Shown here one piece after another: positions 10,202-60,052 of a DNA stretch of 64,000 bases. Origin of the DNA: Proteiniphilum sp. X52. Lineage in GTDB: Bacteria > Bacteroidota > Bacteroidia > Bacteroidales > Dysgonomonadaceae. The DNA is taken from NCBI RefSeq assembly GCF_003712195.1, contig NZ_RDSD01000006.1, forward strand, positions 62,001-126,000, read 5' to 3'. Position 1 is the first letter of the stretch. Each line of letters begins with the position of its first letter. Below the pieces are notes generated by a model that was not told the origin of the DNA, searched no databases, and saw only the letters and a program-made list of their open reading frames with translations. Both the position numbers and the translations under genes were made by a program.

Positions 10202-10236
10202 GAATCACGGGCCAAGAACCAAGATTCAAGACCCAT
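10202..10236 (+). repeat. Heptad repeat block upstream of the 10188 start codon
   Basis: Five consecutive 7-nt units follow the pattern G-A-N-N-C-A-A, for example GAACCAA (10216-10222) and GATTCAA (10223-10229). The block ends 13 nt before the ATG at 10188 when read on the transcribed minus strand. Four further blocks share orientation and placement (17395, 31661, 58966, 60018). Confidence 0.7.
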
Positions 10237-10301
10237 TTGTAAATTTATATATTCGTCTCTTGGCGCATTTAACCATGCCTCACTCCGTTGAAGGTTGTCT
10301 G

Positions 10302-10317
10302 CCCCGACTGGTCGGGG
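10302..10317 (-). terminator. GC-rich hairpin downstream of the DUF4230-like gene
   Basis: CCCCGAC and GTCGGGG form a perfect 7-bp stem with a 2-base spacer, 8 nt after the stop codon of the upstream minus-strand gene. No U-tract follows, so it is a weak terminator, an mRNA 3' stabiliser or a REP-like palindrome. Confidence 0.4.
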
Positions 10318-10325
10318 TGGGCACA

Positions 10326-10964
10326 TTAGTTCAGTTGTGGCATGACCAGTTCTTCCGTGATATGGATATCTTTAAAACCCATCTCTCTCAAAAGCGAAGT
10401 GATGGCAATCCTCGCTTCATCGGTCGCTTGCCTGTAGATACCCTGTCCAACGGCATCACGGATCATCACATCTTTCTCCCGTGAAATCGCCTCGTTGTAA
10501 TCCGATATTTTAATGGGATTAAACGCATTCTCGCTTTCATTGTACACCTGTATTGATTTTTCATCAATCACCGTATCCAGTATTTTGGGTTTAGGAAGCG
10601 AGATGTGAATAGTGGTGTCGTTATCCACAGTCACATTTATCCGGTTAAAATCCACTCCTGCCTTAATATATCCGTTATATTTCAGCAAAAAATATTTGTC
10701 GGTCAGCGGCACATTGATATTTAAGAACTTACGGTAGTCTTTATAACTGATCACTCCCGTATAGTTATACCTGACCAATGCCAGCTCCTGTATATAGGAA
10801 ATACGATTCATCACCGAGGAACTGTCGTATCCTCTCTCTTTCCCAGCCCTTTTATTCCCTGCCAGCAGCAAGAGCGATAAAATAACCGAGAGAACGAAGA
10901 AGAAGACCGTCAATATATTGATCCTTATTTTCGTACTCACTACTATAAATTTGTCATTGCTCAC
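10326..10964 (-). CDS. Membrane-anchored protein, probable DUF4230 family
   Basis: A 212-residue protein with one N-terminal membrane span (about 14-36, ILTVFFFVLSVILSLLLLAG) and an extracytoplasmic domain. The segments RYNYTGVISYKDY, KYFLLKYNGYIKAGVDF and ISLPKPKILDTVID resemble DUF4230, an SPFH-like family of unknown function. There is no in-frame ATG before the membrane span. A stop lies two codons upstream of the GTG at 10964, so GTG at 10964 (or GTG at 10940) must be the start. A -7-like box, TATTTTTG, lies on the minus strand at 11089-11082. Confidence 0.6.
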   Translation of the reverse strand: MSNDKFIVVSTKIRINILTVFFFVLSVILSLLLLAGNKRAGKERGYDSSSVMNRISYIQELALVRYNYTGVISYKDYRKFLNINVPLTDKYFLLKYNGYIKAGVDFNRINVTVDNDTTIHISLPKPKILDTVIDEKSIQVYNESENAFNPIKISDYNEAISREKDVMIRDAVGQGIYRQATDEARIAITSLLREMGFKDIHITEELVMPQLN

Positions 10965-11144
10965 ACATCACTATCATATACCCGACACAGCATTTCCAAA
11001 TTCATCCTATGGGAGGACTAATGACTTTCATTTCACCAACAGACTGAACCTGTTCTATCAAGGCGACTCACCAAGGTAATACAAAAATAGTAATTAAAAT
11101 GAGAATATTATATTAAATATGGCCATAGACCACAAAATTGTATA

Positions 11145-11152
11145 TATATTTG
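11145..11152 (+). promoter_or_regulatory. -7 box for the leader ORF and DUF6377-like gene
   Basis: TATATTTG matches TAnnTTTG and would place transcription start near 11160, about 25 nt before the leader ORF. No good -33 TTTG is found at 19 nt. The divergent region 10965-11237 otherwise contains only this box, the opposing TATTTTTG at 11082-11089 and the leader ORF. Confidence 0.4.
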
Positions 11153-11184
11153 TACATTACGGTTACAACCGCCAGGATAAGGTC

Positions 11185-11241
11185 ATGAATGAGTTCTTAA
11201 AAGCAAATTACTGGATCAACCGCAGAGATTATTTACTATGA
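11185..11241 (+). CDS. Candidate 18-residue leader peptide coupled to the DUF6377-like gene
   Basis: An ATG at 11185 opens an 18-codon frame encoding MNEFLKANYWINRRDYLL. It ends in TGA at 11239-11241, which overlaps the downstream ATG (11238-11240) as ATGA. This arrangement is the classic geometry for translational coupling. The peptide is not similar to anything I know. It could be a regulatory upstream ORF or a chance frame; the exact ATGA overlap is the argument for it. Confidence 0.45.
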   Translation: MNEFLKANYWINRRDYLL

Positions 11242-12836
11242 GGCTTGCGTATATCATATTTTTATTGACTATTTTCCCCACGGCCATTTTCAGCGTGGAA
11301 AGTGAAAACGATTCCCTGCTAAAATTGCTGGACAAGGTTATTTCAGAGCGATCCGGATACACAAAGATAAGGGAAGATAAGATCCAGGAATTGAAGAGGA
11401 GAAAACAACTACTGGTCGATACGAACGATATAATCAATATCAACTCGAAAATTATCCAACAATACAATAGCTTCATTTGTGACTCCGCAGAGTTTTATAT
11501 CAAAGAGAATCTATCTCTTGCGAACGAACTGGATGACCAAGATATCATTGTGGAGAATCTGTTGCGCTTATCCTATATATATTCACTGTCGGGTTTGTTT
11601 CTGGAAGCTTCTGCACTTTTCGACTCTCTTGATTATGAAAGCATGTCAGACAAAGACAAGTTATGGTATTGTTGGAATTCTATTCGATATTTTGAGAGTC
11701 TTATATTCTATACTTCCGATGCAAACCACTCGCTGGTATATGAAAAACAAAAGGAATGCTATAGAGACAAGGTAATGGGGTTGTTAGACAAAGGATCGGA
11801 AGAGTATAAAAAAGAATTAGCCCATAAGCTTCAGGAAGAAAGGCAGTTTTCAGAGGCGGAAAAATTGTTGTTGCCCATCTTTCATAATCAGACATCTGAA
11901 ACACACGGTTATGCAATGGCTGCAATGAATCTCGCCAAATTATACCGCCACTCAGGTAAAAAAGAACTTGAAAATTATTATCTGATTATCGCAGCGATCA
12001 CCGACATAGAATTGGCCGTAAAAGAAAATGAAGCGTTGCTCTCTTTAGCCATAAACCTGTATGAAATGGGGGATATTGACAGGGCATACGAGTACATAAG
12101 GATCGCATTGGATGATGCGCTGTTTTATAATGCAAGATTCAAAAACTCCGTTATCGCGCGGGTGCAACCCATCATTGAAGACACCTATCTGCAAAAGATT
12201 TATTCTCAACAGAAAAATTTAAAGACCTTCTCAATCATTACCAGTCTATTCGCACTGCTCCTGATCATTACCTTATTTTATCTGTATCTACAGGTCAAGG
12301 CCGTTTCAAAAGCCCGGAAGGAGCTTAGAATAATGAACGAAGATCTTCTGCAGTTGAACCGGAAGCTGGATGAAGCCAATACCGTGAAAGAACACTATAT
12401 CGGGTACTTTATGAACCAGTGTTCTATCTATGTCAATAAACTTCACAAGTATCGGAAAAATGTGAACCTGAATATAAAAACGGGACAGATAAACAATCTA
12501 TTTAAATTATCCACGGATGAATTGGAGAAAGATATATGCGAATTACATGCCAATTTCGACAAGACTTTTCTGGCACTTTACCCCAACTTTGTTTCGGAAT
12601 TCAACTCTCTGCTCAGGCGTGATGAACAATATTATCCCGAAAGAGGAGAGTTAAACAATGAACTTCGTATATTCGCTTTGATCAAATTAGGGATCACAGA
12701 CATGAAGCAGATCGCCGACTTTCTGCACTACTCGGTGCAGACTGTTTACAACTATAAAAGCAAAGTAAAGGGAAAAGCCCTGGCTGGGGGTGATCAATTT
12801 GAAGAAATGATCATCAGGATCGGGAGTATATCTTAA
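11238..12836 (+). CDS. DUF6377-like membrane-anchored TPR regulator with C-terminal HTH
   Basis: A 532-residue protein. It has a signal peptide (1-18), a helical TPR-like sensor region (about 25-325), one membrane span (about 330-352, FSIITSLFALLLIITLFYLYL), a coiled coil (about 356-390, ARKELRIMNEDLLQLNRKLDEANTV), and a C-terminal segment FALIKLGITDMKQIADFLHYSVQTVYNYKS shortened to its core ITDMKQIADFLHYSVQTVYN (about 488-507). That core has the look of a LuxR-type recognition helix. This architecture matches the Bacteroidales DUF6377 family, thought to act as transcriptional regulators. It faces the mannoside operon (12928-27300), whose SusC lacks an STN domain, so it is the best local candidate for that operon's regulator. 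Confidence 0.8.
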   Translation: MRLAYIIFLLTIFPTAIFSVESENDSLLKLLDKVISERSGYTKIREDKIQELKRRKQLLVDTNDIININSKIIQQYNSFICDSAEFYIKENLSLANELDDQDIIVENLLRLSYIYSLSGLFLEASALFDSLDYESMSDKDKLWYCWNSIRYFESLIFYTSDANHSLVYEKQKECYRDKVMGLLDKGSEEYKKELAHKLQEERQFSEAEKLLLPIFHNQTSETHGYAMAAMNLAKLYRHSGKKELENYYLIIAAITDIELAVKENEALLSLAINLYEMGDIDRAYEYIRIALDDALFYNARFKNSVIARVQPIIEDTYLQKIYSQQKNLKTFSIITSLFALLLIITLFYLYLQVKAVSKARKELRIMNEDLLQLNRKLDEANTVKEHYIGYFMNQCSIYVNKLHKYRKNVNLNIKTGQINNLFKLSTDELEKDICELHANFDKTFLALYPNFVSEFNSLLRRDEQYYPERGELNNELRIFALIKLGITDMKQIADFLHYSVQTVYNYKSKVKGKALAGGDQFEEMIIRIGSIS

Positions 12837-12841
12837 AAGAA

Positions 12842-12900
12842 GGATATTTTCCCGGTTCTTTGGCATTCCTTTTTAAAAGGAAAATATCCAAAGAACCGGG
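12842..12900. terminator. Interleaved inverted repeats between convergent genes
   Basis: Two perfect inverted repeats are interlocked. A pairs GGATATTTTCC (12842-12852) with GGAAAATATCC (12879-12889). B pairs CCCGGTTCTTTGG (12851-12863) with CCAAAGAACCGGG (12888-12900). The order A-B-A'-B' allows either stem, or a pseudoknot, but not both as nested hairpins. A small palindrome, CCTTTT-T-AAAAGG (12868-12880), sits inside. The location between convergent stops implies bidirectional termination. Confidence 0.7.
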
Positions 12901-12927
12901 TTAAGTTAATCAATTCAGAGATCTCCC

Positions 12928-13944
12928 CTACTCACAGCTTTCCTCTATCACAAAATCATCATCCGTTTCGTTATCCAATATAACCACACTTTTATCCTTA
13001 TTTGTGAAATGAACCTGAATGCCCGATATATCTGCATCTTTGGATAAGCCAAAGAATTCTCTCGGGTAAATGTACTTCTGGAAAGAGGTCACTGCGCCCA
13101 GATCACCCAGTGATTCCATAAGAGTTTTATCGGAAATCTCGTCCACGATCTTTTCTTTCTCTACTCCACCTTCCAGGTACTGTACCTTTGCATACAGATG
13201 AACATCGCCATCTTTCAGACCACCTTCGGTCACGTAGTTCGGTTCGTTATAGCGGATGGAAAATATATCACCGAAACCGAAAGTGGCAGGAACGAAAGAT
13301 ACCGCGGGGTCAGAAGTGAAGTCCATTTGAGGCTCATCACCACCGGTAACTTCCAGAAGTTTAGCTTCTACCACATCCTCATCGGGGTATTTTTCATTGT
13401 GGAATCCAAATGCTTCACCACAGAATGTATACCCCGCATAGAACCTCACGGCACGCGGACCTGTATGAAGTTTTATGTTCACAGAACCCACTACGGTTTT
13501 TTGGTCTGCGATGTTATCATTGATTTGGAAAGTGGTAGCCGATTTAAACACGACCCATTCCATCGGGCCTGTATTGCCAAGTACACCCATACGGCTCTGG
13601 AAAGAAGATGCCCATGGCATTCCATCCGTTGGATTTGTGTCTGTGGCACTCATCAGTACCATGGGTTCGTTGGTAACCTTATTCCCGGCAAATGCCGCGT
13701 CAGTGGTAAGAGTCAGCATAGCATTGTCTCTCACATTCCAAGCTTTAGGCATTAATATACCAAATGCCAACTTACTGTTACCATCGGTTTCGGCAATGAT
13801 TTTTATCTTTACTGTTATATTGATATCACTGTCAACCTGGGCATTGTCGGGGTGAATGATCTCTTCAATGGTCATGCAGGTGGCAACAAGGAATAACACT
13901 GCCACCAATGATAAATAGTATTTATATTTTTTTATGTATTGCAT
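12928..13944 (-). CDS. Exported PUL protein, DUF4961-like
   Basis: A 338-residue exported protein with a signal peptide ending VLFLVATCM (Cys at about residue 23, so probably a lipoprotein). An early Ig-like region (SDINITVKIKIIAETDGNSK) is followed by a second beta-rich part from about residue 200. The overall look is that of DUF4961 proteins, which are encoded near SusCD pairs and are thought to bind glycans on the cell surface. It is the last gene of the mannoside operon, 12 bp after its neighbour. The family name is from memory and should be tested with an HMM search. Confidence 0.6.
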   Translation of the reverse strand: MQYIKKYKYYLSLVAVLFLVATCMTIEEIIHPDNAQVDSDINITVKIKIIAETDGNSKLAFGILMPKAWNVRDNAMLTLTTDAAFAGNKVTNEPMVLMSATDTNPTDGMPWASSFQSRMGVLGNTGPMEWVVFKSATTFQINDNIADQKTVVGSVNIKLHTGPRAVRFYAGYTFCGEAFGFHNEKYPDEDVVEAKLLEVTGGDEPQMDFTSDPAVSFVPATFGFGDIFSIRYNEPNYVTEGGLKDGDVHLYAKVQYLEGGVEKEKIVDEISDKTLMESLGDLGAVTSFQKYIYPREFFGLSKDADISGIQVHFTNKDKSVVILDNETDDDFVIEESCE

Positions 13945-13956
13945 AAGATTACAATT

Positions 13957-14427: not shown

Positions 14428-14466
14428 TTTAATTTTTTAGTTTATAAGTTGTTGATTTTCAAACTT

Positions 14467-15843: not shown

Positions 15844-15867
15844 AATTTAATACTCGTTATTAAATGA

Positions 15868-17379
15868 TCAATCCCTCTTCAATTTAGGATTTAACCTCTT
15901 TTCCCTGATCGGGTATGGCAACAATAAACTTGCTTCGGTAAACGGCGCTGTATGGCTCGGCGTCTGGTACCCGATCATATTTACCATCTGGCCTGTGACA
16001 GCATGTAAAGCCCTGCGGGTTCTCAACATATCATACCATGTCTGATTCTCGAAGGCCAGCTCCCAGAAACGTTCCTGCAATACCTTATCAACCGTGATGG
16101 ATGTTGGTTTCACTTCTTCCGGCAATGCACGTTTTCTGACGGCGTAGTAGGCTGCAATGGCATCGGCATCGGTTGTGGTTCCTCCATCGGCCTGGGCTTT
16201 TGCCTCAGCCAACATCAACAGCACATCAGCATATCTTAAGAGTGTAAAGTTGGCTCCCGATTTTCCGGTTACCGCGGCATCCTGATCCCAGTACTTATAG
16301 ATATATAACCTGCCGAGGTCTACCATGCCCGATTGGTCGAGTGCCTGCTGTTGGGTATAATAGAATTCTCTTTCTTTTTTACGCTTATCGCCTTCGGGGT
16401 AGGTGTCGAAGAACATCTGGGTAACAGTGATCGCTCCACCGTAAGCGGCACTGGCAGAGACGGCTTTTACCGGTGCAGGATAAGCCAGCAGGGCACTATG
16501 GAGGGGATTACCTGCATTGTCAGCCTCTCTCTGAATGGACCAGATAATCTCTCCGGAATTTTCAACAGTTCTCAACTCTTCATAGCTGTCGAACAGAGTA
16601 AATCTCCCACTGCTATATACCTGCTTTGCCATGTTGTAAGCCCTGGCATAGTATTCGGTTCCTTTTTGAAGGGGATATCCGGCCATGGTAAGTAAGACCT
16701 TGGCGTGCATCGACTTGACCGCTCCTTTCGTTACGCGGCCACTGGTATTTGTCCACTCCCTATCTTCCATCAGTTCGCCAGCTCTTGTCATATCCGCATC
16801 GATCTGGGTGTAGATGGCCTCTACGGATGATAATTCAATGGCAGTGTCAGTTACATCTCTGGTAGGGGTGAGCTTCAGTGGCACCGGTCCATAGAGTCTT
16901 ACCAGATTGAAGTAAAAGTAAGCACGGAGGAAATAAGTTTCGCCCAGGTACTGGTTCCTTTTGGCCTCACTTATCATCCCTTCTGCCATACCTTCTACAC
17001 CTTCGATGATGCTGTTGCAATTCTCAATAGCTCTGTATGCTGTTTCCCAGAATCTCTGCACATAGCTGTTATTTTCCGCAATGAGCAGACTGTTGGCCTG
17101 AGCGAGGTCTTGGGTACCTGATCCGCGCATACGTTCACCGTATCCGTGCATGAATTCCAGGAAGACGAAACTATGAGAGCCGGGCTCGATATCTGAGTCC
17201 ATAATATCATCCACAAAGGTGTATATACCGTTCACGGCAGCAGATACCTGCTTTTCGTTTTGGTAATACGAATCGGGGTTCAGAAATGTCTTTGGCTTTT
17301 CTTCAAGGAAAGAATCGCATGAAGAGATCATTACCGCCAGGGCAATGAGCCAGCTTATATTTGAATATATCTTTTTCAT
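15868..17379 (-). CDS. SusD/RagB-family lipoprotein (mannoside operon)
   Basis: A 503-residue SusD homologue with a lipoprotein signal peptide (ALAVMISSC, Cys at about 21) then DSFLEEKPKTFLNPDSYY. The RAYFYFNLVRLYGPVPLKLTP signature is near residue 153, and the C-terminal LLPYPIREKRLNPKLKRD is standard. It partners the SusC at 17648-20791. A 268-bp gap full of heptad repeats separates the two genes, whereas the three other pairs here are 18-26 bp apart. Confidence 0.93.
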   Translation of the reverse strand: MKKIYSNISWLIALAVMISSCDSFLEEKPKTFLNPDSYYQNEKQVSAAVNGIYTFVDDIMDSDIEPGSHSFVFLEFMHGYGERMRGSGTQDLAQANSLLIAENNSYVQRFWETAYRAIENCNSIIEGVEGMAEGMISEAKRNQYLGETYFLRAYFYFNLVRLYGPVPLKLTPTRDVTDTAIELSSVEAIYTQIDADMTRAGELMEDREWTNTSGRVTKGAVKSMHAKVLLTMAGYPLQKGTEYYARAYNMAKQVYSSGRFTLFDSYEELRTVENSGEIIWSIQREADNAGNPLHSALLAYPAPVKAVSASAAYGGAITVTQMFFDTYPEGDKRKKEREFYYTQQQALDQSGMVDLGRLYIYKYWDQDAAVTGKSGANFTLLRYADVLLMLAEAKAQADGGTTTDADAIAAYYAVRKRALPEEVKPTSITVDKVLQERFWELAFENQTWYDMLRTRRALHAVTGQMVNMIGYQTPSHTAPFTEASLLLPYPIREKRLNPKLKRD

Positions 17380-17647
17380 TTGATTGATAATTTAGACATA
17401 AGAGCCAAGAATCAAGACATAAGACATTACATATCCTTATGTATCGTTGATCTATATGCTCGTTTCATATGATTTTATCTCTTTACATCAATGTATATGG
17501 GAACGTTTTAGAACCAGGATTTTTAGAATCAACAACTAAGAAATTAGAACTAAGAAGCGGAGAAGTTCAATATTTCGTTTTTCATTCTTAACTCTTAATT
17601 ATTCACTTTTAAAAAATCTTGGCTCTTTGTTTTTTACTCTTTAATTC
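17380..17647. repeat. Heptad-repeat-filled spacer between susC and susD (mannoside operon)
   Basis: No gene is present. Two blocks read on the plus strand as 7-nt units of the GANNCAA kind: 17395-17429 (five units, GACATAA and GAATCAA among them, ending 15 nt before the susD start) and 17511-17560 (GAACCAG, GAATCAA, GAAATTA and GAACTAA). A third block at 17581-17640 has the opposite polarity (TTCATTC, TTAACTC and similar). The opposed blocks could form a long imperfect hairpin in the intercistronic mRNA. Confidence 0.6.
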
Positions 17648-27300: not shown

Positions 27301-27386
27301 CGCAAATACCATTGTGACCCGAAGGATCTGTTTAGTTAAAAAATAAAATTGTGATTGATATCCAGGTTAGTTTTGAATACAATCCT

Positions 27387-27538
27387 TTATGAGAATGGAT
27401 CATAGACGGCCATCGACACATGCGAATCGGCGCTGCCATAATAACGGAAGAGGTATCCGATGAAAAAACGGGATTCCCCGATACCGGCCGGATAAACTCA
27501 TCTAAAGGAAACAAAGGCTCATAAACCTTTTCAGTCAT
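27387..27538 (-). pseudogene. Remnant of a GH130 phosphorylase/mannosidase gene (internal deletion)
   Basis: On the minus strand an ATG at 27538 encodes FPLDEFIRPVSGNPV within its first 25 residues, resembling the N-terminus of GH130 enzymes. About 30 codons in, the frame changes: the +1 frame reads RYYGSADSHVSMAVYDP followed by FS and stop (27389-27387), resembling the GH130 C-terminus (consensus YYGCADSRVGVAVYDP). About 1 kb of the gene would be missing between. The overlap of both frames around 27450-27465 suggests recombination at a short direct repeat. GH130 enzymes act on beta-mannosides, which fits the GH38/GH92 operon. The family assignment is from memory of the two motifs. Confidence 0.65.
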
Positions 27539-27606
27539 ACTATTATTTCATTTCCTGTCGGACTATCCGGAATGGGCAACTCAATATTGTTTGTAATCCG
27601 GTTTTG

Positions 27607-27637
27607 CAAATGTATGGATGAAAAAAATCCTTTCAAA
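27607..27637 (-). promoter_or_regulatory. Promoter of the mannoside operon
   Basis: On the minus strand TTTG (27637-27634) and TACATTTG (27614-27607) are separated by exactly 19 nt, a full match to the Bacteroides -33/-7 consensus. Transcription would start near 27600, about 60 nt before the GH130 remnant and about 300 nt before the SGNH gene. The stretch 27638-27780 is AT-rich and shows no gene. Confidence 0.8.
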
Positions 27638-27835
27638 TGCAAAGTAGACTTAAAAGTAAACAACTCCACAGCGAAAAATCAAATAATCGTCTGTATATAA
27701 AATTATTACAAGAAACTGGAATGAGCTTAATGGTAAACCGATTTGAACCAAACCTTTCTCTTATCGCTTCCCAATTATGTTAAAACACTGACATAGTGCA
27801 AAGTTTTGTTTATATTTGCAGAATAGTAAAATGTG

Positions 27836-27889
27836 CCGAGCGAAAAGCCCAAGCAAGCTTGGCTTTTCGCTCGGCTTTCACTATATTTG
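27836..27889 (+). promoter_or_regulatory. Hairpin plus promoter before the orphan sigma gene
   Basis: A strong hairpin pairs CCGAGCGAAAAGCC (27836-27849) with GGCTTTTCGCTCGG (27861-27874). Its apex AGCCCAAGCAAGCTTGGCT (27846-27864) nearly equals one in the leader at 5643-5661. It overlaps a promoter with TTGG (27859-27862), 19 nt, and TATATTTG (27882-27889). A second TATATTTG lies before the hairpin at 27811-27818. The hairpin could be a terminator between tandem promoters or an operator. Confidence 0.6.
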
Positions 27890-27910
27890 CCGCTCAAAGT
27901 TAAGCGCCAG

Positions 27911-31793
<3,883 letters not shown>

Positions 31794-31815
31794 GACGTTT
31801 TATATGATAATTTAC

Positions 31816-46188: not shown

Positions 46189-46196
46189 TACTCTAA

Positions 46197-48381
46197 GTGC
46201 GACAAGAGGTCGTACAAGTAATTGTTCAGCATCATGTCTGAACCCATTGTTCCGTCAATGGTAGCATAGAGAGGCGTGCGTGATTGGTAACGGTCGGGTG
46301 CGAAGCCCTCTCGACAATGCGGCTTCAACGCAAACATCCTGCGTGAAGAGCTGCTAGGCTGACCGACATGGGTAACACAAGTGAACCACTGCACCATCGT
46401 AACAAAGAATTGGCTTACGGATGTTACAAGCCATGCCAAAAGGCAAGCAGTCAGGATAGCCCTCTTTATGGAAGGGCTACACGGATGTCGAACTGCCGGT
46501 GGATGGGCGGACTCTAAATCGGTCGTTAGTTGCTTGTGCGAAACTTGGTAAGCCCGTATTTCTCCCCGTGTGCACGGGGTAAGCCAATCGTGAGAGAAGC
46601 CGAACGGAATGCGGGTAAAGGATTGCGGAGAAAGCGAATGCTTCCGTGTAATGCGGGAGATAGAGGTTTAAAGGTTACCTCACGCGAAAGCGGGCAGACT
46701 TCCGCAGGGTAATTCTTTGTGAAAGGAAGGCAGAACTTGAAAAATGAAGAAACGGCAAAGGAGCGAGGCGCAAGCCGGGTGTGCATCTTCAGCCCGGAGA
46801 GCCACATCCTGGAAAGCAATTGATTTCCAAAAGTGTGAGCGAAGGGTGAGAAAGCTGCAAATCCGAATAGCAAAGGCTCAGAGGGAAAAGAGGTACGGCA
46901 AGGTGAAAGCACTGCAACACCTCCTGGTCACCTCCTTCGACGCCAAAGCCCTGGCGGTAAGGAAAGTGACCTCCAATAAAGGGAAACGCACGGCGGGGGT
47001 GGACTGCATATTGTGGAACACCGATGCCAAGAAATTAGGCGCGATACGTTCTTTGAAACGGAGAGGGTATAAAGCCCTGCCCCTAAAAAGGGTCAACATA
47101 CCGAAAGCAAACGGAAAGATGAGACCGCTGGGAATACCGACGATGAGGGACAGAGCCATGCAGGCACTTTACCTGATGGCATTGGAGCCCGTCACGGAAA
47201 CAGAAGCGGACGCCAACTCCTACGGGTTCAGGAGAGGGCGGAGTGCGGCGGATGCCATAGACGCCCTGCATAGATGGTTGAGCAGAAAATGCTCTCCCCA
47301 ATGGATATTGGAGGGAGACATTAAAGGATGTTTTGACCATATCAGCCACAGGTGGCTTCTCGATAATGTACAAATCGACAAGCAAATATTAAAAAAGTGG
47401 CTGGAGAGCGGAGTGGTGTTCAATAAACTGCCGCAACCCACAACGGAAGGAACGCCGCAGGGGGGCATCATCTCTCCCACACTCGCCAATGCGGTCCTGG
47501 ACGGCATGGAAAAAATGCTGAAAGAGAAGTATAAGGTGAGGTATGCGGACGGAAAACTTTACTGTCCCAAAGTGAATCTTGTACGATATGCGGACGACTT
47601 CATAGTAACCGGGGAGAAAAGGGAAACGCTGGAAGAGATAAAGAAAATGCTGACCGGCTATTTAAGGGAGCGAGGTCTCACACTCTCCGAGGAAAAGACG
47701 TGGATAACACATATCAGCAAGGGGTTCGACTTCCTTGGGTTCAACGTGCGCAAGTACAACGGCACATTGTTAATCAAACCATCCAAGAAAAGTCAGAAAC
47801 GCTTTACCGAAAAGCTGCATGAAGTTGTGCTCGGAAAGAACAAAACGGCAGCACAGGAGGGGCTGATAAGGGAACTCAATCCGATAATCAGAGGTTGGGG
47901 AAACTATTACAGTCATGTGGTATCAAAGAAAGTGTTCAGCAGGATAGACCATGTTTTAATCAATCAGTTGAAACGCTGGTCGTACCGAAGACACGCCAAC
48001 AAGTCACGAAAGTGGATAAAGGAAAGGTACTTTGTCGGCAATGGGAGCAGGGATTGGATTTTCAGCTGTGAAAGTAAAGATAAGAAAACTATCTTTGTAC
48101 TTCTCAAGTTGGCGGATATTCCCATCAGACGTCACATAAAGGTAAAGTGCGAAGCCAATCCGTTCGACCAGGCTTGGGACGCCTATTTCAGGAGGCGAAA
48201 GGTGAAAAGCTGTCGCCAACGTGCGTAAATCAAACTTTATCGGAATGCAAGCACCTTTAACGGTGAATGTGAGCCGGTTTAATTTTATGAGAATTAAATT
48301 TAGAATTATCGGAGCTGTATGCGGTGAAAGTCGCACGTACAGTTCTTAATGGGGGAAGCGGCAGCAATGCCGCCGACCTAC
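46197..48381 (+). mobile_element. Group II intron with RT/maturase ORF
   Basis: The 5' end reads GTGCGACAAGAGG, the conserved group II start. Domain V is recognisable at 48312-48345 (34 nt, starting GAGC with the AGC triad and a GTGAAA loop). It is followed by domain VI (about 48351-48381) with a GCAA tetraloop and a bulged A near 48376. The 3' end is placed at ...GACCTAC (AY rule). The proposed length is 2185 nt. EBS2 can be proposed as ACAAAG at 46402-46407, complementary to CTTTGT at 46184-46189. EBS1 may be TTATGG (46466-46471) in a TAGCCC/GGGCTA-closed loop, with one mismatch to the target. The 3' end could be off by 2 nt. Confidence 0.85.
46744..48228 (+). CDS. ltrA: Group II intron reverse transcriptase/maturase
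   Basis: A 494-residue protein encoded in intron domain IV that helps splicing and copies the intron into DNA. The RT domain spans about 70-345 with KANGKMRPLGIPTMRDRAMQ (RT1-2), EGDIKGCFDHI (RT3), EGTPQGGIISPTLAN (RT4) and LVRYADDFIVTG (RT5 catalytic YADD). The maturase X domain follows (about 365-430, LNPIIRGWGNYYSHVVSKKVF and INQLKRWSYRRH). The protein stops at YFRRRKVKSCRQRA, where longer relatives continue into an HNH endonuclease with CxxC pairs. That domain is absent, so retrohoming would need another primer source. Confidence 0.93.
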   Translation: MKKRQRSEAQAGCASSARRATSWKAIDFQKCERRVRKLQIRIAKAQREKRYGKVKALQHLLVTSFDAKALAVRKVTSNKGKRTAGVDCILWNTDAKKLGAIRSLKRRGYKALPLKRVNIPKANGKMRPLGIPTMRDRAMQALYLMALEPVTETEADANSYGFRRGRSAADAIDALHRWLSRKCSPQWILEGDIKGCFDHISHRWLLDNVQIDKQILKKWLESGVVFNKLPQPTTEGTPQGGIISPTLANAVLDGMEKMLKEKYKVRYADGKLYCPKVNLVRYADDFIVTGEKRETLEEIKKMLTGYLRERGLTLSEEKTWITHISKGFDFLGFNVRKYNGTLLIKPSKKSQKRFTEKLHEVVLGKNKTAAQEGLIRELNPIIRGWGNYYSHVVSKKVFSRIDHVLINQLKRWSYRRHANKSRKWIKERYFVGNGSRDWIFSCESKDKKTIFVLLKLADIPIRRHIKVKCEANPFDQAWDAYFRRRKVKSCRQRA

Positions 48382-48404
48382 ATAACAAATATAATTTCAT
48401 TTGT

Positions 48405-49400: not shown

Positions 49401-49525
49401 TTTTTTCATAAAAGAAATACTTACTTATTCGGTGGCAGAATTTATTTTCTGTCAACGAATATTCAATTGTTCAAATGAATAAACATTTAATTATCTAATT
49501 ATCAATAATATAAACAATGCATGAA

Positions 49526-49573: not shown

Positions 49574-49595
49574 TAACAATTTCAGGTCGAATAAA

Positions 49596-50944
49596 ATGAG
49601 TATCGTTACGCTCTCTATGCTGGTTCTGCTGAGCATCGCGCTTATCGTGCTACTCACTTCGGTGACGAAACTAAACGCGTTTGCTTCGCTGTTTATCGTG
49701 GCCCTGTTGTTGGCCATGATCACCCTTCCCGACAAAGATGTGGTCCAAGTCCTTAAAGAGGGGTTTGGGAGCACCATGGCATCTATCGGGTTTCTGATTA
49801 TTTTCGGGGCGATTATTGCCGTGGTGCTGGAAAAGACAGGCGGTGCCATAAGCATCGCTAATTATATTCTGTCGAAGACAGGACAGGGTAAAGCCGCTTC
49901 AGCAATGGGCATTACGGGATTTGTCGTGGGATTGCCCATTTTCTGTGATTCGGGGTATATTATTGTGATTCGGGGTATATTATAATGAGTGGATTGGTAA
50001 AATCATTCAGCACGAAGGCCCGAATCGCATTGCCTTTTATCGCGTTTGTTTTGGCCACTTCACTCTATTCGGTACACTGCCTCACCCCCATACACCCCGG
50101 AGCATTGGCCGCTTCGGGAATTCTAAACGCGAATATCGGCATGCTGATATTGCTGGGGACACTTTTTGCCATTCCCGCTTCCATAGCCGCATTTCTTTGG
50201 ATCAAATGGCAAACAAGGAAAGATAGCTACCAAGAAACAGAGCCCTCCAAAGGTGAAATCGGGAGCCAAGAGCAATTGCCCCCGGTCGGTCTTTCGTTAT
50301 TACCTATCGCCACACCACTCATTCTTATAGCAATCGGCTCTTTCCTCGCGGTAATGAAAGTGCCCGAAACCCATTTGGCATTGAAAGGGTTGGCATTGAT
50401 AGGACAACCTATTATTGCCCTGCTGATTGGCACATTTTTATCACTGTTTTTATTGAAAAACAGGGCGGTGAAAAGCATCAATTCAATCCTTGAATCCGCC
50501 ATAGAAAAAGCAGGCCCGATCCTTATCGTAACCGGCGCGGGCGGAATGTTCGGCATGGTGATAAAAGAGACCGGCGTGGGCGCTTATGCCGGAGAGTTTT
50601 TTCTGCAAACAGGCTTAGGCCTTGCTGTTCCCTTTCTGATTGCTTCCATACTGAAAACCGCGCAGGGTTCATCAACCGTCGCGGTCATTACTGCGGCATC
50701 GTTCGTCGCACCCATGTTACCTGCACTGGGACTGGATTCGGAAACCGGAAAACTTCTGGCCATGATTTCGATGGGGGCCGGCTCAATGATGGTGTCTCAC
50801 GCCAATGATTCTTATTTCTGGGTGGTCGCCCGATTTTCCGGGATCAATTCCGACACCACGTTAAAAGTCTATTCCACGGCCACCATCGTGATGGGAATCG
50901 TTACCTTCGCGTGTGTATGGTTGACTTCATTTTTTATATTGTGA
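49596..50944 (+). pseudogene. GntP-family gluconate/glycerate permease split by a 20-bp tandem duplication
   Basis: Together 49596-49985 (129 residues) and 49985-50944 (319 residues) cover a complete GntP-type proton symporter of about 440 residues with 12 or more spans. TGTGATTCGGGGTATATTAT is present twice in tandem at 49944-49963 and 49964-49983. Removing one copy restores FCDSGYIIMSGLVKSFSTK in one frame, as expected for the GLPIFCDSGY family region. The first part now ends TAA overlapping the ATG of the second (TAATG), so reinitiation could still make two pieces. The companion glycerate kinase suggests D-glycerate or a sugar acid as the substrate. It is either a recent mutation, a reversible switch or an assembly error. 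Confidence 0.88.
49944..49983 (+). repeat. Exact 20-bp tandem duplication
   Basis: Two perfect copies of TGTGATTCGGGGTATATTAT abut each other. Twenty is not a multiple of three, so the duplication shifts the permease frame. It is short enough to revert by slippage. Confidence 0.97.
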
Positions 50945-50953
50945 TAAAATAAG

Positions 50954-53653: not shown

Positions 53654-53656
53654 GTT

Positions 53657-53758: not shown

Positions 53759-53768
53759 AGGTTTTGTT

Positions 53769-55100: not shown

Positions 55101-55137
55101 AATGTAAATTTATTAAAAGATTATTATACTGATTATT

Positions 55138-56616
55138 TTATGAAATCAGGGATTTCCAGCGTTGGTATGCATTCATATATTGACCTTTATTCTTATTATC
55201 GGGCTCCACGGTCATGATTTTCTTCAATGAGGAGAATGCTTCTGTAGGCGACGCATATATTCCCGCACCGATACCGGCAGCTTTTGCCGCACCTGCCGCT
55301 CCGTCGGTATCGAACAGTTCGATGACCGCGCCGCTTACTGAGGCAAGCGTTTCCCTGAAGAGCGGACTGAGGAACATATTGGCATTTCCCGCACGAATGA
55401 CCCGGATATCCATCCCGATCTCCCGCATGATCTCCATTCCATACTGGAAGGCAAAAACGATTCCTTCCTGGGCCGCCCGCAACACATCGGAGCGGGAATG
55501 AATATTGAAATTAACACCATGGAATGAGCAGTCCACATTCCGGTTTTCCAGTACGCGCTCCGCACCGTTCCCGAAAGGGATTACCGAGAGGCCTCTTGCG
55601 CCGATGGGCGATCGCGCGGCAAGTGCATTCATCTCATTGTAATCTACCTGTCCCGGCATGATGTTTTTCTTTATCCATGAATTCAGAATACCCGTCCCGT
55701 TGATACAAAGCAAAACTCCTAATCTTGTCAAATCGGGTTTGTGATTGACATGCGCAAATATATTCACCCTCGAAAAGGGATCATATCTTACCTCATCCAG
55801 TACTCCGTAAACCACACCCGATGTACCGGCGGTAGAAGCGATCTCTCCGGGATCAAAGACATTCAGGGAAGCAGCATTATTGGGTTGGTCTCCTGCCCGG
55901 TAGCTGACCGGCGTTCCGGGCGATAGACCAAGCTCTCTTGCCGCGGAGTCAGACACACGGCCTTGTATGCCGAATACCGGCGTTATATCGGGGATCAGCT
56001 CTTTCTCGAATCCGAAATGATCCAGTATCTCCCGCGACAGACGATTCTCTTTGAAATCCCAGAATATTCCTTCGGACAATCCCTCCACAGTAACCGATAT
56101 CTCATCTGTCAACCTCATGGCAATGTAATCGCCCGGCAACATGATCTTGTAAATACGCTCATATATCTCCGGTTCATTCTCCTTTACCCATGCCAGTTTT
56201 GAGGCCGTAAAGTTACCGGGAGAGTTCAATAGATGGGATAAAACCTTCTCTTGCCCGATTGAATGAAAAGCCTTCTCTCCAAAAGGTACTGCCCGGCTGT
56301 CACACCAGATAATAGATGGACGTAGCACCTCCCTGTTTTTGTCTACCATCACCAATCCGTGCATCTGCCATGAAATACCGATGGCCTTAATATCCTGAGG
56401 GTCTGCTTTCGATTGTTTGAGTAACGAAGCGGTAGACAACCTCAGGTTAGTCCACCACATCTCCGGATCTTGCTCGGCCCATCCGGGCTGTTCAGCATAC
56501 ATCGGCATCTCTGCCTTGGGATAAAAATCGGATGTCACGGTTTTTCCGGTTTCAATATCCACCAGCGCGGCTTTCACGGATGAGCTGCCTATATCATATC
56601 CTAATAGATACATCAT
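55138..56616 (-). CDS. xylB: Xylulokinase, FGGY family
   Basis: This 492-residue kinase phosphorylates D-xylulose to xylulose 5-phosphate for the pentose phosphate pathway. The FGGY ATPase motifs are visible: LLGYDIGSSSVKAALVD (phosphate 1, residues 3-19), GISWQMHGLVMVD, a W-C-D segment SIIWCDSRAVPFGEK (about 105), RAGDQPNNAASLNV (about 240), and VIRAGNANMFLSPLFRETLA (adenosine region, about 410). Two ATG codons in a row are possible starts. It is the first gene of the xylB-xylA-xylE group. Confidence 0.94.
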   Translation of the reverse strand: MMYLLGYDIGSSSVKAALVDIETGKTVTSDFYPKAEMPMYAEQPGWAEQDPEMWWTNLRLSTASLLKQSKADPQDIKAIGISWQMHGLVMVDKNREVLRPSIIWCDSRAVPFGEKAFHSIGQEKVLSHLLNSPGNFTASKLAWVKENEPEIYERIYKIMLPGDYIAMRLTDEISVTVEGLSEGIFWDFKENRLSREILDHFGFEKELIPDITPVFGIQGRVSDSAARELGLSPGTPVSYRAGDQPNNAASLNVFDPGEIASTAGTSGVVYGVLDEVRYDPFSRVNIFAHVNHKPDLTRLGVLLCINGTGILNSWIKKNIMPGQVDYNEMNALAARSPIGARGLSVIPFGNGAERVLENRNVDCSFHGVNFNIHSRSDVLRAAQEGIVFAFQYGMEIMREIGMDIRVIRAGNANMFLSPLFRETLASVSGAVIELFDTDGAAGAAKAAGIGAGIYASPTEAFSSLKKIMTVEPDNKNKGQYMNAYQRWKSLIS

Positions 56617-56747
56617 TCATTGATTTACAAATTATTTATATTTCACATGCTCATTTCTTTGATCATTTCTCATCGCTCCAGGCGATCACGGAACAAAGCC
56701 CAGCAGATTCAGTGCAATTTCCACTTGTAGAGGAAGCAAAAATATCA

Positions 56748-56846
56748 TCACATGACAAATCCGTTGAATCCTCCGTCTATGGTGATGGTTGCCTGTACCT
56801 CCTGTGATAACGACCACTCTTCCGTTTATGCTGAATAAATTTTCCA
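56748..56846 (-). pseudogene. 99-bp remnant of an SDR oxidoreductase gene (internal deletion)
   Basis: On the minus strand an ATG at 56846 encodes MENLFSINGRVVVITGGTG, the N-terminal strand and glycine-rich NAD(P) motif of short-chain dehydrogenases. Directly after this, in the +2 frame, the sequence reads QATITIDGGFNGFVM and stop (56750-56748), the C-terminal TGQ-x-I-x-IDGGF motif of the same family. Some 700-750 bp are missing between. Both edges share ACAGGC, so deletion at a microhomology is likely. The N-terminus resembles D-mannonate oxidoreductase-type SDRs used in glucuronate catabolism, which fits the adjacent alpha-glucuronidase gene. The rest of 56617-56903 shows no gene. Confidence 0.8.
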
Positions 56847-56903
56847 TATTTTGTTTTTTTGATCTTCAAGTGTGATTTCGGCGCATCTATGTTTTGTCAG
56901 GTC

Positions 56904-58943
56904 TCAGTGATGATGTTTCAAATCCAGTTTTACCTTTTTCAGGTCATCCAATTCATGCACGGGTCGTTCGATATCATAAGGAATCGGCTTTCCGGAATAG
57001 GTCTGGAAATACAGAAGGCAAGCATCTTTCCACCAGACAGCATCACGCGACTGTATTTTCAACCGCGACTGCACATGACGGAAACGTTCTCCGTCGATGT
57101 ACCTCTCCATCCTGTCCCATATTTTCTGGAATTCGCGCACCTGTCGCACACCGGTATCGTATCGATAACAAAGCTCGTCCCATAGAGTACGGCCGTTCTT
57201 CATCGGATGGTCCCAGGGCAGATGATGGAACCAAAGGAGAAGATCTTCGGGGCAGGTTGCGATATCGTTAAAATATTCCTTTAACGGAGCATGATACTGC
57301 GAAACGGCATCGCTGCCCCCGGTCGTGCGGTCGAATCCGATCCCCTTTTCACCGGCGTTATGGTAATACCGGGGCAACCAGTCCGGACGCGCGCCGGGAA
57401 TATCGCACCACGGTTCGGGTCCATAGTGGTGATCCCATGCAAAGATATGGTGCAATCCCAACGGCATCATATAATTGACGGCGGCGTCCCATGAGTGGAG
57501 CATCATCTCTTTCACGGGAGTGACGAAGGCCTGGTCGCGGGTAAACGCCATGCGCAGCCACTCTTCGGCGATCTCGTCTGCCGTTAACTCGCAATTCCAT
57601 GCCAGCCGGCCGAAGGCATACCAGTTTGCCTGCGCAAAATGGTGCCCACACCAGTTAATATCCTCTCCGATATTTGCCACGCCCGCAATGGCACTTACGG
57701 GATGGGGGAAAATAGTGCCGTCGGTTGTCTTGGCAACAGTCGCGCCTTTCCCATTGCAATAGGTATCACTTTCAAAGAACTCTTTCCACTGGGGCGCCAA
57801 AAATACCAGATGGTTGGAGAAGCCGAGATATTCCTGGGTAATCTGCAATTCAGGCATCAGGGCTGTATTCTTCATTCCGCCGAATAGCGGACTGAACGGT
57901 TCCCGCGGCTGAAAATCTATCGGCCCGTTCTTTACTTGCAGGATCACATTGTCTCGAAATTTCCCATCCAAGGGTATAAATTCCTGATACGCCTGTTTAG
58001 CGCGATCCTCGTCGCCAGGATGATAAACGAATGCGCGCCACATCACAATACCCCCATAGGGTTTCAGCGCATCCGCCAGCATATTGGCTCCATCGGCATG
58101 TGTACGGTCGTAATCCTGGGGACCGGGTTGCCCTTCGGAATTGGCTTTCACCAGAACCCCCCCGAAATCGGGGATCAAACGGTATATCTCCCCGATCTTA
58201 TCTCGCCACCATCGTCGCACCCCGGTATCCAGCGGATCAGACCCGGAAAGCCCGCCCAATATCTGCGGAGATGAAAAGTTGACCGATAAATAGACCTTTA
58301 TACCGTAAGGACGCAGAATATCCGCTATTACTTTCACTTTGCGCAGGTAATTTCCTGTCAATATACCGGGAGAGGCATTCACGTTGTTCAGCACCGTTCC
58401 GTTGATGCCGATCGAAGCGTTGGCCCGCGCATATTCCTTGTATCGCGGAGATATTTTTTCGGGTAGTTCATCCCATTTCCAGATGGAATATCCGGCATAC
58501 CCGCGTTCTACCGTGCCGTCGAGGTTATCCCAGTGGTTCAGCAGGCGCAAATCATATGCGGGGGATTCTTCCACCTGCAGCGCGCCGTTGTCGTTTTGCG
58601 TATCCTGTAAACGCAACAAATGGTAGGCTCCGTAGAGTAATCCCAGGTCGGAGGCCGATTGAATATGGATTCCCGTTTGCTTCTCGCCGGAAATGACATA
58701 GCCCTCCTTTCCCAGGTTTCGCAACTTTTTATTTTGGTGTAAGGAAAGGTGTACCGCTCCACCTTTCCATCGCTTTTCCAGTTCCTCAACCGCAACGCTT
58801 ATGGCCGGACTTTCCCTGTTGGCTTTCACCTGGGCCTGGGCGGTCATTTCGGCACGAAACCATAAACGGCTTCCATCCTCCGCTTTCAGGCATCCCGCGG
58901 AAACACACCACCAGAATACTATATATAATACGGTTCTATTCAT
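56904..58943 (-). CDS. aguA: GH67 alpha-glucuronidase, exported
   Basis: A 679-residue enzyme that removes (4-O-methyl-)glucuronic acid from xylo-oligosaccharide ends. The signal peptide (VLYIVFWWCVSAGCLKA) indicates export. An N-terminal domain (about 22-140) is followed by the catalytic TIM barrel (LRLLNHWDNLDGTVERGYAG, about 135; VKANSEGQPGP with the acid Glu, about 265; FQPREPFSPLFGG with ITQEYLG for the base residues, about 350), and by the helical C-terminal domain (FHHLPWDHPMKNGRTLWDEL, about 585). It lies 86 bp downstream of the GH43 gene in the xylan cluster. Confidence 0.95.
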   Translation of the reverse strand: MNRTVLYIVFWWCVSAGCLKAEDGSRLWFRAEMTAQAQVKANRESPAISVAVEELEKRWKGGAVHLSLHQNKKLRNLGKEGYVISGEKQTGIHIQSASDLGLLYGAYHLLRLQDTQNDNGALQVEESPAYDLRLLNHWDNLDGTVERGYAGYSIWKWDELPEKISPRYKEYARANASIGINGTVLNNVNASPGILTGNYLRKVKVIADILRPYGIKVYLSVNFSSPQILGGLSGSDPLDTGVRRWWRDKIGEIYRLIPDFGGVLVKANSEGQPGPQDYDRTHADGANMLADALKPYGGIVMWRAFVYHPGDEDRAKQAYQEFIPLDGKFRDNVILQVKNGPIDFQPREPFSPLFGGMKNTALMPELQITQEYLGFSNHLVFLAPQWKEFFESDTYCNGKGATVAKTTDGTIFPHPVSAIAGVANIGEDINWCGHHFAQANWYAFGRLAWNCELTADEIAEEWLRMAFTRDQAFVTPVKEMMLHSWDAAVNYMMPLGLHHIFAWDHHYGPEPWCDIPGARPDWLPRYYHNAGEKGIGFDRTTGGSDAVSQYHAPLKEYFNDIATCPEDLLLWFHHLPWDHPMKNGRTLWDELCYRYDTGVRQVREFQKIWDRMERYIDGERFRHVQSRLKIQSRDAVWWKDACLLYFQTYSGKPIPYDIERPVHELDDLKKVKLDLKHHH

Positions 58944-58965
58944 TATTCCACCTCAATAAATTCCG

Positions 58966-59001
58966 GATTTCAAGATTTCAGATTCAAAATTCAAGATGCT
59001 G
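58966..59001 (+). repeat. Heptad repeats upstream of the GH67 start
   Basis: Units GATTTCA (twice), GATTCAA, AATTCAA and GATGCTG follow each other with one extra base at 58973. They begin 22 nt from the aguA ATG. The rest of the 86-bp gap (59002-59029) continues with CTTTCCA-like units, so the whole spacer is repeat-like. Confidence 0.6.
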
Positions 59002-59029
59002 AACTTCCCCACCTTTCCACTTTTCCACT

Positions 59030-60004
59030 TTAAGAAGCAGTTCCCTGAATCGTCCTGATCGTTCCATCCGGGTTGTATTCCAGTTCCACCACTTTCAGGC
59101 TCCGCAACCATGTTTTGCCGCCCGAAGGGACACAATCGTGATGGAACAGATACCATTTCCCTTTGAATTCAATAATAGAGTGATGGGTAGTCCAGCCCGC
59201 GACAGGCGTAAGGATCACCCCCTGGTAGGTGAACGGGCCGTAAGGGTTGTCGCCAAGGGCATAACAAATCAGATGCGTGTCGCCGGTCGAATAGGAAAAA
59301 TAATATTTCCCGTTGTATTGATGCATCCACGATGCTTCGAAAAAACGGCGTTGGGTATCGCCGGCCGTGAGCGGTTTCCCCTTTTCATCGAGAATGAGCA
59401 GGTCACGCGGCTCTCCGGCAAATTCAAGCATATCTTCCGTCAGCCTTACCACTTTGGGACAAAGTGCCGGCGCATCCCCTTCGGGCAAATCCGCGCATTC
59501 CAACGCTTTGTTGTTGCGGTATCGTTGCAGTTGTCCTCCCCAGAGCCCGCCGAAATACATATAATACTCCCCATCTTCGTCGTGCCAGAGGCAGGGATCA
59601 ATGCTGTAACTCCCTTTGATGGGATTTTCCCGCGGAATGAACGGCCCTTCGGGTTTATCACTGACGGCCACGCCGATACGGAAGATATCATTTTTATCCT
59701 TCAGAGGGAAATACATATAATACTTTCCGTTCCGAAAAGCTACGTCACAATCCCATAACTGCCGGCCAGCCCAGGGAATGTCTTCGGTACTGAGCACGAC
59801 ACCGTGATCGGTGACTTCTCCTTTTTCCACATCATCCAGAGAAAATACGCGGTAATCCCTCATATTGAAATGATCCCCGTTGTCGTTCTCAGGAATACCG
59901 CTTTCCCAATCATGGGAGGGATAGATATAAATCCGGCCGTTAAAGAGGTGAACCGACGGATCGGCCATATAATCATCCGGCACCAAATACCTTGCTTGTT
60001 TCAT
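59030..60004 (-). CDS. GH43-family glycosidase (beta-xylosidase/arabinofuranosidase type)
   Basis: A five-bladed propeller hydrolase. The frame opens at 60073, but the ATG at 60004 removes repeat-derived residues and gives 324 residues with no signal peptide, so it is probably cytoplasmic. The catalytic triad is visible: base Asp in YMADPSVHLFNGRIYIYP (about 12), the pKa-modulating Asp in SIDPCLWHDEDGEYYMYF (about 128), and acid Glu in RRFFEASWMHQYNGKYYFSY (about 215). It would act on xylo- or arabinoxylo-oligosaccharides brought in by the GPH symporter encoded just upstream. Exact specificity is not readable. Confidence 0.88.
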   Translation of the reverse strand: MKQARYLVPDDYMADPSVHLFNGRIYIYPSHDWESGIPENDNGDHFNMRDYRVFSLDDVEKGEVTDHGVVLSTEDIPWAGRQLWDCDVAFRNGKYYMYFPLKDKNDIFRIGVAVSDKPEGPFIPRENPIKGSYSIDPCLWHDEDGEYYMYFGGLWGGQLQRYRNNKALECADLPEGDAPALCPKVVRLTEDMLEFAGEPRDLLILDEKGKPLTAGDTQRRFFEASWMHQYNGKYYFSYSTGDTHLICYALGDNPYGPFTYQGVILTPVAGWTTHHSIIEFKGKWYLFHHDCVPSGGKTWLRSLKVVELEYNPDGTIRTIQGTAS

Positions 60005-60017
60005 ACTTTTTAATTTA

Positions 60018-60052
60018 GAATCAGGATTCAAGAACCAGGACACAGGACTGTT
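60018..60052 (+). repeat. Heptad repeats upstream of the GH43 start
   Basis: Five units in register (GAATCAG, GATTCAA, GAACCAG, GACACAG and GACTGTT) begin 13 nt from the ATG at 60004. The remaining gap 60053-60234 carries other 7-nt-periodic, low-complexity sequence, for example around 60085-60150 and 60210-60240 (CACATTGG-like units). It contains no gene. Confidence 0.65.

Follow-up and report, generated by a model that had tools for sequence, protein, structure and literature searches.

The subject of this analysis is a set of tandem 7-nt repeats (heptads) in intergenic regions of Proteiniphilum sp. X52, met in a window of 64,000 nucleotides (contig NZ_RDSD01000006.1, positions 62,001 to 126,000), the whole stretch of DNA analyzed here. 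An initial annotation of this window had described five heptad runs at a fixed short distance ahead of minus-strand genes and had proposed for them a function in translation initiation or RNA binding, or a mobile or expanding leader element. The 7-nt periodicity on the minus strand is confirmed in all five stretches (beginning at 10202, 17395, 31661, 58966, and 60018), and the gaps of 13, 15, 20, 22, and 13 nt from run to ATG (at 10188, 17379, 31640, 58943, and 60004) are exact, with the run at 58966 being weak. By Pfam, the genes behind these sites encode, in order, a 171-aa open reading frame (ORF) without a Pfam match, a SusD-like protein, a beta-galactosidase (with its nearest named relatives in Bacteroides, Dysgonomonas, and Parabacteroides), a GH67 and a GH43 protein. 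The wider class of arrays to which the runs belong is found at both ends of genes in this genome and a few close relatives, and seems to be a rapidly changing repeat family of known kind, not a new translation signal.

The degenerate runs at 10202, 17395, and 60018 fit a dispersed leader family, described by a sequence-only model (R1) built from copies that precede an ATG, and these three of the five sites are among the R1 matches in this genome. A full-length copy on the minus strand (17371 to 17486, E 2.7e-20) encloses 17395-17429 and ends in heptads and TCTAA, 12 nt ahead of ATG 17379 of the SusD-like gene. The minus-strand match at 10185 to 10257 (E 4.4e-7; 10185-10233 with E 5.3e-6 in a second R1 scan) encloses 10202-10236 and carries its heptad part with TTCTAATTTTAATCGT ahead of ATG 10188, and a degenerate copy on the same strand at 59997 to 60100 (E 3.3e-6; second scan 59997-60048, E 2.8e-5) encloses 60018-60052, with TTCTAAATTAAAAAGT ahead of ATG 60004 of the GH43 gene. 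A long minus-strand array of about 18-20 copies of TTCTCAG/TTCCCAG, at 31650 to 31803, takes up the greater part of the gap that separates a LysO-like gene from the beta-galactosidase gene starting at 31640, and Tandem Repeats Finder reports 31661-31793 as a clean array of period 7 with 18 copies and 92% matches. The ATCTTGA-type run at 58966 to 59001 (minus strand), 22 nt ahead of ATG 58943 of the GH67 gene, has only 15/21 matches at lag 7, and the same program assigns it period 14.

Two further runs had been overlooked. A TTCTTAG/TTCTAAT-type run at 17522 to 17563 (minus strand; 25/28 in a pattern scan) shares intergenic region and direction with the 17395 site, and a TTCTTAA/TTTTTCA-type run at 17570 to 17612 (plus strand; pattern scan and lag-7 runs) has the opposite orientation, with the stop of the SusC-like gene upstream lying about 40 nt away. 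The description of a single direction therefore stands for the five listed runs and fails for the latter, and the reported absence of repeats before plus-strand genes is correct within the window only: genome-wide, TTCYNAG arrays number 201 forward and 195 reverse, so that the strand bias is an accident of the window.

To set the period against chance, arrays were defined as runs with at least 16/21 matches at lag 7 and compared with dinucleotide shuffles. The genome comprises 4.43 Mb in 96 contigs, and many genomes of the genus are incomplete drafts; our sample from it consists of 45 stretches including the window (932 kb, with 460 intergenic regions of at least 30 nt), on contigs drawn from pattern-search listings and placed mostly at steps, with L151, L154, and L155 chosen for pattern matches and L226-L229 for synteny. 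Among the sister species, which are designated by G numbers, G051 is represented by 12 stretches (8 chosen for pattern matches and 4 for synteny) and G054 by 10 (4 for synteny, the rest at steps). Gene starts were called with a simple hexamer method and not taken from annotation.

Lag-7 runs occur in 39/460 intergenic regions, against a shuffled mean of 1.0, and the multiples of the period behave alike (lag 14, 42 regions vs 0.0; lag 21, 31 vs 0.2). Lag 8 is weakly raised (11 regions vs 0.5 shuffled), lags 5, 6, 9, and 10 reach only 0-2 regions, and an earlier set of 41 stretches showed a slight rise at lag 15 (8 regions) and lag 20 (5 regions); there, the coding sequence of 612 genes yielded 3 lag-7 runs. 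A scan for TTCTYRR at a threshold of 22/28 or more gave 25 matches in 452 kb, compared to 1-3 in five dinucleotide shuffles. The inference from fixed period to a non-chance origin thus holds, both by the excess between genes and by the near absence within them. No clear residual period 7 is found in intergenic regions without an array, which indicates that the arrays are discrete. In the sister species, lag-7 regions amount to 17/101 in G054, 24/133 in G051, 2/76 in G053, and 0/45 in G052.

Families of 8-nt units (by eye, for example GTGCCAAT / CATTGGCA) accompany the heptads, for instance at L227 9280-9556 and L228 7358-7686, and lag 8 is raised in the intergenic regions of this genome (G000), G051, and G054. 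Two contigs of the genome (C9 and C87) also have heptad arrays within about 75 nt of an end; the draft assembly may therefore break at arrays, and array counts may be low.

Six word families were counted in tandem: F1 TTCYNAR, F2 TCTTGRN, F3 TYTTMAY, F4 TTRGTAA, F5 TTRTCMA, and F6 YTYATAA. Their spread was surveyed by exact whole-genome matching in 39 species of the genus, with overlapping matches, so that one long array counts many times. TTCYNAG arrays gave 396 matches in this genome, 24 in G051, 3 in G054, and 0-7 elsewhere; TYTTMAY arrays 585, 85, and 130, with at most 21 elsewhere; and TTRGTAA arrays 92, 39, and 79, with 3 in G061 and 0-1 elsewhere. TCTTGRN arrays reach further (59 here, 49 in G051, 37 in G054, 17 in G061, 28 in G088, 26 in G086, and at most 11 elsewhere), and in the wider order they occur in 41/393 genomes and 36/207 genera. 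Array abundance is accordingly a property of few species: the wider class is abundant in this genome and a few close relatives among the 39. Family shares differ as well, with F1 accounting for 17/51 arrays here and for 2/58 in G054. Reversed patterns, used as controls, gave 32 matches against 585 for TYTTMAY, 0 against 92 for TTRGTAA, and 4 against 396 for TTCYNAG, but they are not clean for single words (587 reversed vs 571 pattern in one scan), since a reversed pattern can spell another heptad family. This applies to TCTTGRN, for which the control is not independent; it gave 108 matches against 59 in this genome and matched in 23/393 genomes of the wider order.

The dispersed leader, of about 110 nt, is a more specific entity. 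A 26-nt piece of the 17395 site has four further genome matches at up to 3 mismatches and its reversed control none; TTGATTCTTGGCTCTTRTGTCTAA at the same tolerance has 11, 17, 14, 6, and 11 copies in G000, G051, G054, G061, and G088, respectively, again with no reversed match. Reading of 30 TTGATTCTTGGCTCTTRTGTCTAA loci revealed that a longer leader is common to many (13 were aligned), with an upstream block of TATGAAAC, CATGAGA, TTCACACAA, and ATGATTAAAAT, followed by the heptads GTCTTGT GTCTTGA TTCTTGG CTCTTGT GTCTAAT TTTTAAT and then the ATG. The genes behind it are unrelated, and to that extent the first proposal of a leader element is supported; judged by eye from N-termini, with only SusD assigned by search, they are TrpE-, DnaN-, biotin carboxylase-, sialate-synthase-, SusD-, and sulfatase-like. 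Matches to R1 (E up to 0.01; 92 candidates scored per genome, so that the counts are lower bounds) number at least 53 here, 62 in G051, 55 in G054, 52 in G088, 31 in G061, 29 in G068, and 15 in G086, and at least 0-9 in other members of the genus. In 198 genomes of the order, with 18 candidates scored per genome, at least seven other than the present genome have a match with E of 1e-4 or below; among three of these that were read, one has a full leader before an ATG, one a plain array, and one heptads before an ORF that is argininosuccinate-synthase-like by eye.

In the stretches examined, an R1 match is followed by a same-strand gene in 10/11 cases in G000, 7/9 in G051, and 6/7 in G054, and a called start lies within 25 nt of the match end in only 8/11, 6/9, and 3/7, the match at 10185 being scored as a miss, with the gene start placed elsewhere by the hexamer caller. 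Spacing was measured on copies in which TCTTGNNTCTAA is followed by an ATG after 4-16 nt. Of 26 such distinct copies, 3 had no ORF and were set aside; in 21 of the other 23 the distance from TCTAA to ATG is 10-12 nt. At 11 nt, the value seen most often, AA falls at -13/-12, and in the accessible part of a study of Flavobacterium johnsoniae an A-rich -13/-12 position goes with high initiation (PMC6847099). The fixed distance to the ATG is thus a feature of the dispersed leader and not of the bulk of the arrays, for which no phase lock was found at starts (p = 0.28; 48 arrays, leaving out those beyond 25 nt and those fitting TTNNNRR below 0.8); of the two regularities noted in the window, the distance derives from the leader and the period from the wider array class.

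Several further properties of the leader were examined. Among the matches listed for G071, G072, G076, and G080, R1 covers the upstream half only, and in G071, G072, and G080 another sequence replaces the heptads after it. The upstream half alone (about AATCGTATGAAACGAGCATGAAAACTGTTTTCACACAAGAACATGATTAAA) occurs at L039 4489-4545, L339, L341, and L343, with an ATG of its own and a stop within few codons. A leader peptide was considered and rejected by eye: some copies run from ATG to TAA through the heptads, and others have no ATG or an early stop. Rfam covariance models at gathering score gave no match at the arrays in the window. Dispersed repeats of other kinds, intergenic as well, with lengths near 58, 110, and 200 bp and roughly 75-95% identity, some of them adjoining heptad arrays (among the matches listed), link 6899-7420 and 27313-27910 of the window with L033, L036, L146, L032, L041, and L136.

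For the bulk of the arrays, position and orientation were assessed in 141 arrays from three species, 123 of which lie between same-strand genes. Among these, 71/123 are nearer the start of the following gene and 52/123 nearer the stop of the preceding one. Leaving out four arrays at exactly 50% pyrimidine, start-near arrays are pyrimidine-rich in the sense strand by 48:21 and stop-near arrays by 10:40 (Fisher 1e-7; each species alone <0.01); once 9 arrays overlapping the dispersed leader are removed, the ratios are 40:21 and 10:39. A 4-mer classifier trained on start-near arrays only called 60/71 of these (leave-one-out) and 14/52 stop-near arrays as sense; across species it was weaker in the same direction, the weakest split giving 31/40 and 13/30. 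By family (F1-F6), the ratio of sense to reversed at starts is 15:1, 10:0, 7:2, 13:0, 1:1, and 4:1, and that of reversed to sense at stops is 6:4, 2:0, 12:1, 5:2, 11:2, and 0:0. In divergent gaps, eight arrays have a coding-sequence edge no more than 30 nt away and 7/8 point at it, and convergent gaps provided four cases, too short for judging polarity. At starts, 51/71 arrays lie within 20 nt; at stops, 26/52 overlap the last codons. Local composition is rejected as a cause of the polarity, as array-free gaps are about 50% pyrimidine on both sides and 44% in the last 20 nt before the ATG.

The orientation and close spacing at starts claimed by the initial annotation are therefore corroborated. 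Equal frequency downstream of stops or in either orientation, which it had named as evidence to the contrary, is found by half: stop-side arrays are common, at 52 vs 71, and are mostly reversed. As this outward polarity holds at starts and also, if less strictly, at stops, translation initiation alone is unlikely to account for it.

In sister species that keep a gene pair side by side, arrays often occupy the same gap, sometimes with another word. The leaders of a class-V aminotransferase gene (by Pfam) carry TTCTCAG here, TTTATAA in G051, CTCATAA in G054, GGTAATT in G061, and TTTTTCA in G088, and the last ~17 nt before the ATG stay similar across the five species; in other gaps the word is kept (GGTAATT in L151/L236, ATCTTGA in L153/L262). 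Between L151 and L236 (G051), GGTAATT has five units vs two, a 21-nt difference within nearly identical flanks. In nine ortholog comparisons the array threshold was passed on one side only; one was set aside (28% identity, not orthologs), and in the remaining 8/8 the gap is longer where the array is present, for example 122 vs 38 nt and 19 vs 146 nt. At the PFK gene, a promoter-side sequence common to several species ends in what we take to be a TTTG-type promoter motif, and the array stands between this motif and the ATG. The last 20 nt before the ATG are A-rich alike with or without arrays, which matches the A-12/A-13 motif in the part of PMC6847099 available to us.

On balance, we regard the arrays as somewhat more probably than otherwise short tandem heptanucleotide repeats, akin to the cyanobacterial short tandemly repeated repetitive (STRR) sequences, that grow in permissive strips beside coding sequences. 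Arrays would grow and shrink by whole 7-nt units, with slipped-strand replication and inter-array recombination as the most likely mechanisms; the GGTAATT comparison is one clean case of a whole-unit change. Located as they are beside coding sequences, they may survive only where extra sequence is tolerated, presumably in two strips, one between a stop codon and the regulatory core of the gene that follows, the other between the promoter and the A-rich initiation region before the ATG. Words turn over, and one degenerate array is part of the ~110-nt leader that is dispersed before dozens of unrelated genes; the fixed ATG distance of that leader could reflect the presence within it of an initiation region of the Bacteroidetes type, in which AA stands at about -13/-12. 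If repeats are tolerated in such strips, most arrays would be leader and trailer filler rather than a dedicated switch. In favor of this view count the confinement of the raised periods to DNA outside genes, the discreteness of the arrays, the longer gap on the array side in the eight ortholog comparisons, the exchange of words within conserved surroundings, the restriction of abundance to few species, and the absence of a theme among ten downstream genes.

A number of observations weigh against STRR-like growth. The outward polarity is left unexplained by it: in a strict subset, whose arrays are at most 30 nt from one edge and farther from the other by over 20 nt, the outward rule holds for 43/47 arrays on the start side and 33/39 on the stop side. 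A sieve in which arrays avoid ATG codons at starts or supply stop codons at stops is rejected as the general cause, as it fits only some families. TTCTTCA/TGAAGAA conforms, with 0.034 ATG per unit in sense and 0.089 reversed at starts and 0.73 stops per unit at stops vs 0.49 in the opposite orientation, but TTCYNAG and TTRGTAA contain no ATG either way and are still 15:1 and 13:0 sense at starts. Neutral growth does not predict the hugging of coding-sequence edges (median distance 10.5 nt vs an expected mean of 52, in 100 arrays with at least 60 free nt), nor that one word family (F1) dominates many loci of one species. Whole-unit change is readable in one clean case only, no age gradient was found inside 38 arrays, and the leader of the TrpE-like gene retains its heptads in four species, which hints at constraint.

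The last observation favors a working mRNA element. On this view, an RNA-binding protein or ribosomal protein S1 would recognize the heptad leader, which would thereby adjust initiation, and reversed, purine-rich copies after stops would act on mRNA 3' ends. The sense orientation at starts (50 family matches vs 5 reversed, six families summed), the 10-12 nt from leader to ATG in ORF-confirmed copies and the R1 matches in seven genomes of other families also point in this direction. Replacement of the word in some orthologous leaders, the few or absent arrays in most members of the genus, the lack of phase lock and the lack of any supported conserved RNA structure in the leader all argue against it, as does a Pfam survey of ten genes next downstream of arrays (eight with a start-side array), which showed no common theme. 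We consider this explanation a possibility, though not an expected one; a general function in translation initiation, as first put forward, is not supported, in view of these points other than RNA structure and of the many arrays that lie nearer a stop, mostly reversed. It is unlikely that leader and arrays are inserted or extended by a dedicated activity that starts in the gap and proceeds outward as far as a coding sequence. Such a mobile or enzyme-made element would account for the polarity at both edges, the dispersal of the leader over unrelated sites in several species and the words typical of species, but the arrays lack a gradient along their length, inspection of aligned leader copies by eye showed neither terminal inverted repeats nor identical target duplications (no dedicated search was made), and the one window leader copy compared with plasmid and phage collections had no match there.

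A still bolder reading is a general edge-seeking heptad system of this clade, with outward arrays at both gene ends and a word that is rewritten between species while place, period, and polarity are kept, by templated 7-nt addition or through a word-tolerant reader protein. We consider it distinctly unlikely; if true, it would be a type of intergenic organization that period and polarity define, and not sequence. Very improbable is the proposal that arrays form the arms of intercistronic hairpins (terminators or repetitive extragenic palindromic-like structures) in which each array pairs with a reversed one elsewhere in its gap. A few gaps hold facing, potentially pairing arrays (for example L230 11493-11592 of G054 and L154 7983-8562 of this genome), but by duplex energies relative to other gaps, pairing of arrays with their own gap has a mean rank of 0.46 over 110 gaps (0.5 being chance), with 9/110 in the top 5% and 13/110 in the top 10%, and as a general account the proposal is refuted by these near-chance energies.

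Two other features of the window may be recorded. A perfect 20-bp tandem duplication, TGTGATTCGGGGTATATTAT, stands at 49944-49983, at the very end of an ORF and beside the start of the next. A group II intron is identified by Rfam on the plus strand at 46243-48386 (RF02012 at 46243-46351, RF00029 at 48310-48386), and the 494-aa ORF between the two matches (46744-48228) presumably encodes its maturase.

Bacteroidetes largely lack Shine-Dalgarno initiation, which makes the content of their leaders a matter of interest. Repeats that keep place, period, and polarity but are able to swap their word between sister species separate slippage from selection in a directly testable manner, and the dispersed leader is a ready tool for probing leader effects on expression. 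If most arrays are filler, they caution against taking a 7-nt leader as a regulatory signal.

Cyanobacterial STRR sequences are degenerate intergenic heptanucleotides with several words per genome, and related genomes differ in their copy number by whole units. On that definition, the present arrays agree in their head-to-tail degenerate 7-nt units dispersed in non-coding DNA and, in one clean case (five vs two units), in whole-unit copy change. A search of the open literature by titles and abstract openings, with few subscription papers, retrieved no account of such arrays in this group or of an outward rule. In the accessible part of a Geobacter metallireducens analysis, dispersed elements of four or five heptanucleotide repeats are described (PMC2700814); the unit there is the GC-rich GGGACCG, also found inside genes, another class is MTYCTGA, and no spacing from start codons is given there. 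The closest known system is that of the TAACTGA heptamers, which stand immediately before start codons in marine Beggiatoaceae, Cyanobacteria, and five Bacteroidetes (MacGregor 2015; PMC4679880) and for which S1, cold-shock, and Csr-type proteins are considered as candidate readers. As far as the available part of that paper describes them, they resemble the present arrays in being intergenic direct heptamers with no functional theme and a patchy distribution; in BOGUAY they have mostly one orientation just upstream of starts, and in F. litoralis one set is reversed just after a stop codon, like the stop-side arrays. TAACTGA itself forms no tandem doublets in the 932 kb of this genome, 520 kb of G051, or 600 kb of G054, and GAACTGA and TGAAGAA do form them here. 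The TAACTGA repeats, as presented there, are mostly intergenic, of one orientation and near starts; the present arrays are intergenic too, and 51/71 start-near ones lie within 20 nt of the start, mostly in sense, but a stop-side class of 52, mostly reversed, is nearly as large. The two systems nevertheless differ: that of TAACTGA consists of one word whose related heptamers are rarely or never in direct repeat, whereas here six word families stand in tandem, reversal beside stops is frequent, words are replaced between orthologs, and a 110-nt leader is dispersed.

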